Origin: a virus
Length of the DNA stretch: 59,822 nucleotides
Strand: one strand, 5' to 3'
IMG/VR virus record: IMGVR_UViG_3300017991_000120
Location: 1-59,822 of that record
Part shown: piece by piece, positions 39,746 through 39,900 of the stretch
Position numbering within the stretch: position 1 is the first letter of the stretch
Layout of the letters: each line of letters begins with the position of its first letter
Made by a program: the position numbers and the translations under genes
Notes under the pieces: model-generated
Seen by the model: the letters and a program-made list of their open reading frames with translations, nothing else
Told to the model about the DNA's origin: nothing
The model's database searches: none

Positions 39746-39900
39746 AAAGCGACGAAAGCGTCACGGTTGTTATAGGTAAGGTTAGAACATTGGTCTCGTA
39801 AACCAAGGGTCGCCGGTTCAACTCCGGTCCACAGACTTCGGTCTGAGGTAGTTCAGTAATAAACTAAAAAACAACCTAAGATTTTTCGGCGCTTTTTTTT
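39746..39900 (+). ncRNA. Y-RNA-like RNA 3 with permuted tRNA-Thr(CGT)-like domain
   Basis: Outer helix AAAGCG-GAAA/TTTC-CGCTTT, internal loop starting GCGT, inner helix GGTTGTT/AACAACC (39765-39771, 39870-39876), then TATAG. Inside: D-loop half and GAAC, anticodon stem TTGGT/ACCAA with loop CTCGTAA (anticodon CGT), variable GGGTC, T arm GCCGG-TTCAACT-CCGGT, acceptor strand CCACAGA, a TTCG tetraloop, acceptor strand TCTGAGG (one mismatch), then TA and D stem GTTC. The acceptor end is closed, as in tRNA-like bacterial Y RNAs. A T8 run ends it. Confidence 0.8.

Follow-up and report, generated by a model that had tools for sequence, protein, structure and literature searches.

A phage gene that probably encodes a Y RNA built around a circularly permuted tRNA, next to a divergent Ro60-like gene

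Three tandem Y-RNA-like genes, called YR1, YR2 and YR3 here, lie in the viral record IMGVR_UViG_3300017991_000120 (59,822 nucleotides (nt); the window below means this whole stretch), in an array that ends ~50 nt upstream of an open reading frame (ORF) for a protein predicted to resemble Ro60/Rsr. We focus on YR3, which on its sequence and predicted fold is very probably a Y RNA carrying a permuted tRNA mimic. An earlier note on this DNA had described YR3 as a single feature, a threonine tRNA in permuted order with its acceptor stem closed by TTCG; that description of YR3 stands, every part being where the note had placed it, but YR3 is one of three genes, and a second permuted tRNA, in YR2, had been missed. 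The features of the locus are as follows.

39746..39898, + strand: YR3, a Y-RNA-like gene encasing a permuted tRNA (sequence reading and fold)
39781..39858, + strand: tRNA module of YR3, opened in the D-loop, in the order half D, anticodon arm (CGT), T arm, closed acceptor, half D (rotated-tRNA covariance model, ARAGORN)
39829..39848, + strand: acceptor stem of YR3, CCACAGAC-TTCG-GTCTGAGG, its end closed, without CCA and without a free 3' end
39499..39734, + strand: YR2, Y-RNA-like, with a tRNA-Leu-like module opened in the variable arm (fold, descriptor scan, ARAGORN after re-ordering)
39407..39488, + strand: YR1, a simple Y-RNA-like hairpin without a tRNA module (z -3.5)
39947..41488, + strand: divergent Ro60/Rsr-like protein of 513 amino acids, predicted to form a helical-repeat ring with a vWA-like domain (AlphaFold and Foldseek)
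41485..42504, + strand: ARPP-1 (PF20208) gene, which adjoins the Ro-like gene in an arrangement conserved in relatives

The predicted Ro-type stem of YR3 consists of a lower helix, an internal loop and an upper helix (GGTTGTT/AACAACC, 39765-39771/39870-39876) and surrounds the permuted tRNA. Following the strand inwards, the D-loop half brings G18-G19 (39780-39781), and the two strands of the D-stem, GAAC (39785-39788) and GTTC (39851-39854), bracket the anticodon arm TTGGT-CTCGTAA-ACCAA (39790-39806, with the anticodon CGT at 39797-39799), the T arm (39812-39828), the acceptor 3' strand CCACAGAC (39829-39836), TTCG (39837-39840) and the acceptor 5' strand GTCTGAGG (39841-39848). A C(UUCG)G tetraloop closes the acceptor in place of a discriminator-CCA end, and the whole RNA folds with z = -2.2. 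YR3 shares with YrlA-type RNAs the tRNA-like T, acceptor and D arms and the closed acceptor stem; it departs from a working tRNA in having no free acceptor end, discriminator or CCA, and in belonging to a family without stable isoacceptor identity.

A covariance model was built from 26 ordinary class I tRNAs of the window phage and related phages, opened in silico in the D-loop and given random four-base acceptor loops. This rotated model matches 39781-39858, including the anticodon arm that the earlier note had called intact, with 62.5 bits (E 4e-16), the third-best match in 202 kb; Rfam's tRNA model without rotation reaches 30 bits at YR3, barely at its cut-off, because half of the tRNA is misplaced in the permuted order. 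When the pieces are put back in conventional order, ARAGORN calls YR3 as tRNA-Thr(cgt) and YR2 as tRNA-Leu(tag); it makes no tRNA call on YR3 in native order and none in 2000 shuffles, 1000 for each gene. A second model, R2, opened in the variable arm, fails to recover YR2 whole because of the 95-nt acceptor loop of YR2. Since rotated models also score tandem ordinary tRNAs, by joining the 3' half of one to the 5' half of the next, only matches with complementary acceptor strands across the loop were retained. For three related records scanned whole (L003, L005 and L012; relatives are given L numbers here), matches of the D-loop model above 47 bits are confined to the Ro locus, unlike records with tandem ordinary tRNAs, which give matches elsewhere too. 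Permuted tRNA modules of this kind escape standard tRNA finders.

The other two genes share the outer architecture of YR3. The window contains three copies of the decamer GTTGTTATAG (0.05 expected), all in the array and each forming the 5' side of a YR stem; the three genes fold with an upper and a lower helix on either side of an internal loop, the lower helix being followed by a T-run. This basal two-helix stem with an internal loop is that of Y RNAs, as is the position beside a Ro60/Rsr-like gene. YR1 pairs 39407-39414 with 39481-39488, followed by the T-run, and continues through a 6/6 internal loop into an upper stem with GGUUGUUAUAG; none of 200 shuffles was equally stable. The lower stem of YR2 is AAAGTATCAAG/CTTGATACTTT (39499-39509/39724-39734), with CGTTGTTATAG also present. 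Its T arm (39533-39549) and acceptor 3' strand (39550-39556) are separated from the acceptor 5' strand (39652-39658) by the acceptor loop, which is structured; the D arm comes next, then the anticodon arm CTGTT-TTTAGGA-AACAG (39678-39694, TAG). Within the insertion that forms this loop, a 20-nt stretch (GGGTCGCCGGTTC) is 85% alike in YR3. A permuted self-splicing intron, prompted by the repeats of GTTGTTATAG, was considered and dropped: the repeats are Y stems, and Rfam finds no intron.

The product of ORF 39947-41488 matches nothing in Pfam, PHROG or PDB-sequence searches, nor in a profile search against PDB sequences. A single-sequence AlphaFold model was useless; the model built with 16 homologues (pLDDT 78) has a predicted fold of the Ro60 type, with a helical ring and a vWA domain. 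Foldseek places Ro60, Rsr and TROVE entries in the top eight positions against the PDB (E 4.5e-6 to 1.1e-3, TM about 0.5), among them D. radiodurans Rsr 2nvo (E 5.2e-6), and among the homologues the MIDAS-type residues (D343xSxS, T402 and D424) are fully or almost fully conserved. The proposal in the earlier note that the closed acceptor serves a tRNA mimic inside a Y RNA agrees with this fold of the next gene, with the Ro-type stem and with the recurrence of the permuted layout in relatives, described next.

Single-sequence scans of viral and genome collections with the Ro-like protein returned no relative; alignment queries recovered homologues of about 26-35% identity on other viral contigs and on a few bacterial or archaeal contigs. 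All relatives' loci were collected via the Ro-like gene, and the module counts below cover Ro-linked loci. When scanned with a descriptor that looks for a T arm and an acceptor 3' strand followed by its own complement, many relatives, phage and bacterial, prove to have closed permuted modules beside homologous Ro genes, among them Minicystis rosea (L020) and two deltaproteobacterial metagenome-assembled genomes (L021, L023). The absence of the arrangement from related phages, which the earlier note had named as grounds for rejection, was thus looked for, and the arrangement recurs. By reading of the sequences, with module coordinates partly set by hand, we assign at least four opening points across the family: the D-loop, as in YR3 (L003, L005 (two), L012, L013, L017); the variable arm, as in YR2 (L003, L005, L010, L011, L012, L014, L026, L029, L037); position 26 (for example L004 and L020); and the anticodon arm. 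Many further modules are unpermuted tRNAs within a Y stem. The flanks of 52 modules form a mean of 14.7 Watson-Crick pairs, versus 7.8 when paired with the flanks of other loci.

These observations bear on whether the modules are functionless remains of a decayed tRNA array, their pieces joined by chance or rearrangement. Phages rich in tRNA genes rearrange their tRNA arrays, and the 95-nt insertion in YR2 would fit decay; yet all arms of YR3 pair and match the rotated model at the E value given above, the closed permuted design recurs beside Ro genes whose proteins share less than 35% identity, and the stems around the modules are complementary. We regard decay as hardly credible.

Some ARAGORN calls in relatives also lie within Y stems, namely tRNA-Cys(aca), tRNA-Stop(tta), tRNA-Asp(atc) and tRNA-Thr(agt) (L007 3682-3754, L008 3703-3778, L003 2788-2863, L011 3134-3206 and others). 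They are probably Y RNA modules and not tRNAs, which calls for caution with some annotated phage tRNA genes, such as tRNA-Cys(aca) and tRNA-Stop(tta).

The anticodon triplet varies freely across the family. Among 57 modules that have an anticodon arm, the loop is 7 nt long in 50, and these 50 loops carry U33 in 40 cases, R37 in 48, and 29 different triplets. Compared with 166 ordinary tRNA genes from the same loci, U33 frequency does not differ; odd loop lengths, some of 6 or 8 nt, are commoner in the modules (7/57 versus 2/166, p 0.001), as is A34 (8/50 versus 1/164, p 4e-5), p values that, like the one that follows, ignore phylogeny. In the orthologous group of L005, L011, L012 and L014, the 74-nt body has 9 variable columns, and the anticodon loop accounts for 6 (nominal P 3e-6); the triplets are TAT, AGT, TGA and TGC, while U33 and the anticodon stem are constant. 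A second orthologous pair has two of its four changes in the triplet. Because triplets change freely between orthologues, the modules are no set of isoacceptors and 'threonine' cannot stand as an identity, so this part of the earlier description falls; YR3 also has no C2-G71, which together with the missing discriminator-CCA and free acceptor end makes charging by threonyl-tRNA synthetase unlikely.

The same variation bears on a different reading of the permuted order. In algae and archaea, permuted tRNA genes encode the 3' half ahead of the 5' half, and their transcripts are cut and joined into working tRNAs. The YR modules likewise have the 3' half first; by analogy, the RNAs would be cut in the acceptor loop and joined in the D-loop to give working tRNAs that aid phage translation. 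That the re-ordered sequences make good tRNAs, and that ACCA is retained in the acceptor loop of a few relatives (L017, L013, L004), speaks for such processing. The YR3 acceptor, however, is sealed, UUCG replacing the discriminator-CCA, and the tRNA sits inside a Y RNA whose ends lie inside the Ro stem, followed by the T-run; orthologues swap anticodons, with A34 and the irregular loops just described, and no splice machinery was seen. As for the circular or rejoined molecules that the earlier note had entertained, neither a permuted-intron nor an RNase P leader layout was seen. We consider working tRNAs very improbable.

Several known systems resemble the one described here. The YrlA RNA (RF02553; Salmonella YrlA, PDB 6CU1) is likewise a Ro-associated Y RNA with a permuted tRNA-like module: it aligns with tRNA by circular permutation (PMC11472068), mimics the D, T and acceptor arms only, and is modified by DusA and TruB (PMC8394870). 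YR3 differs in its full anticodon arm and its opening in the D-loop, and relatives open at further points; the Rfam model RF02553 has no match at E up to 10 in 39100-39960, and its weak matches (28-33 bits, cut-off 69) are seen only in relatives L008, L013 and L015, the one in L013 being a module at 3778. The sub-cut-off YrlA-like modules of L008 (292-396) and L015 (208-304) lie directly ahead of a tmRNA gene. In D. radiodurans, too, a Y RNA gene stands beside a Ro60 orthologue and its RNA combines a Ro stem with an effector module, tethering Rsr to PNPase in the RYPER complex (PMC8394870, PMC7790460); the phage differs in its three-gene array and in a Ro-like protein that has diverged beyond the reach of Pfam TROVE.

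Ro proteins accompanied by likely Y RNAs are already known in phages (PMC7824862, PMC12282133, PMC7765460): TROVE proteins occur in jumbo phages (PMC7824862), in Listeria phage CKA15 (PMC12282133) and in mycobacteriophages as cited there, and strongly transcribed regions upstream of the CKA15 Rsr gene have been proposed as Y RNAs (PMC12282133). These systems share a phage-encoded Ro/Rsr protein with ours; a complete permuted tRNA is not described in PMC7824862 or PMC12282133. In Listeria phage P100, a relative of CKA15, there is no permuted-tRNA match in the stretch that separates the Rsr gene from the first ordinary tRNA gene, and the Rsr-like gp165 aligns weakly with our Ro-like family profile (hhalign E 0.017, probability 2.7, 106 columns around the vWA motif). 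P100 (L041) does have three short ACAGCAA(A/T)TACTA repeats just upstream of gp165 (28180-28430, minus strand) that resemble simple Y RNAs, and in the P100-like CKA15 strong transcription is reported near the matching region. Our literature search found no account of complete Y RNA tRNAs with anticodon arms, several opening points or swapped anticodons, an earlier mention being possible.

On its sequence, YR3 is a tRNA opened in the D-loop, where the Ro-type stem is grafted, with its acceptor end sealed by a UUCG loop. By analogy with known Y RNAs, the phage Ro-like protein would bind the stem and hold the mimic, which could then occupy or recruit a tRNA-binding protein. Since the mimic would be neither chargeable nor usable in translation, it would work through a protein that binds tRNA, and action of the YR3 module by binding a tRNA-recognising protein seems to us the probable mode. 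Overall, the explanation we favour is a Ro-held Y RNA tRNA mimic serving as bait or tether for a tRNA-handling enzyme, to which we assign a probability of about 0.65.

As to the enzyme, orthologues retain the anticodon arm but differ in its triplet, and on this ground we prefer a bait role aimed at host enzymes that cut or handle tRNA, with anticodon nucleases as the first candidates. An operon that includes YrlA responds when tRNAs are damaged, and Wolin and colleagues raised the possibility that YrlA, through its tRNA-like domain, is a competitive inhibitor of an anticodon nuclease (PMC7790460). An arm that is absent from YrlA and is kept, with varied triplets, in the phage modules possibly reflects the need of a bait for anticodon-reading enzymes, relaxed constraint being possible as well; that YR3 is specifically an anticodon-nuclease decoy is a tentative idea. 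More tentative still is its generalisation: whole-tRNA mimics, joined to the Ro stem at one or another position around the tRNA circle and diversifying by selection in the anticodon loop, would form a collection that Ro60 holds for phages and some bacteria, as decoys that soak up or block anticodon nucleases and other tRNA-targeting defences.

Alternatively, the module might tether an effector, a ribonuclease or RNA-repair enzyme of host or phage origin that it would bring to the Ro ring much as the D. radiodurans Y RNA does with PNPase, the anticodon arm being a leftover or a structural prop. Besides that known role of a Y RNA with Rsr and PNPase, the presence of the RNA ligase RtcB in 4 of 23 records, its gene lying about 5 kb or less from the Ro gene in two relatives, and the existence of modules without an anticodon arm (L013 3778, L004 2604) are in keeping with a tether; the window record itself has no RtcB, and an arm retained in 57 modules with the loop length, U33 and R37 described above exceeds what a pure prop needs. 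A tether in which the arm has no role of its own is conceivable, and we would put it on a par with the specific decoy.

Several points weigh against a Ro-held tRNA mimic acting as bait or tether. The acceptor stem of YR3 contains a single A:A mismatch. Pfam TROVE (PF05731) does not match the Ro-like protein, and its Ro membership therefore rests on the AlphaFold model; the GGA(A)C motif that relatives have in the internal loop is missing from the window's YR stems, and no close relatives of the window's own Y RNAs were found. The anticodon nuclease tested on Salmonella YrlA did not cleave it (PMC7790460). Two of the four orthologous comparisons have no triplet excess, and the free variation of anticodons could reflect relaxed constraint and not selection; the phylogeny-blind p values and the partly hand-set module coordinates, mentioned above, belong here too.

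If a Ro-held tRNA mimic is the right description, Y RNA tRNA mimicry in bacteria extends beyond the YrlA form without an anticodon arm to whole tRNAs, opened at several points and set in Ro stems. Structural studies could draw on the modules as naturally occurring circular permutants of tRNA, and the binding partners of bacterial Y RNA tRNA mimics become directly testable, with the anticodon loops as readout.

There are further observations on the surroundings. No consensus sigma-70 promoter was found upstream of the array. Upstream of YR1, a GC-rich hairpin followed by a T-run (39326-39395, AACGCGAGGCTC..GAGCTTCGCGTTTTT) might be a terminator or a further, fourth small RNA, and a weak promoter candidate, TTGCAT-17-TATACT, lies directly ahead of it. 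An ARPP-1 gene also stands 3' of the Ro-like gene in the LR756500 phage, with a similar gene in the other relatives inspected, and it is likely part of the same system as the Ro-like gene. At 56226-59539 the window has apparent queuosine/preQ0-type genes (QueD, QueE, FolE and QueC-like, judged from translations), which might modify tRNA or DNA.
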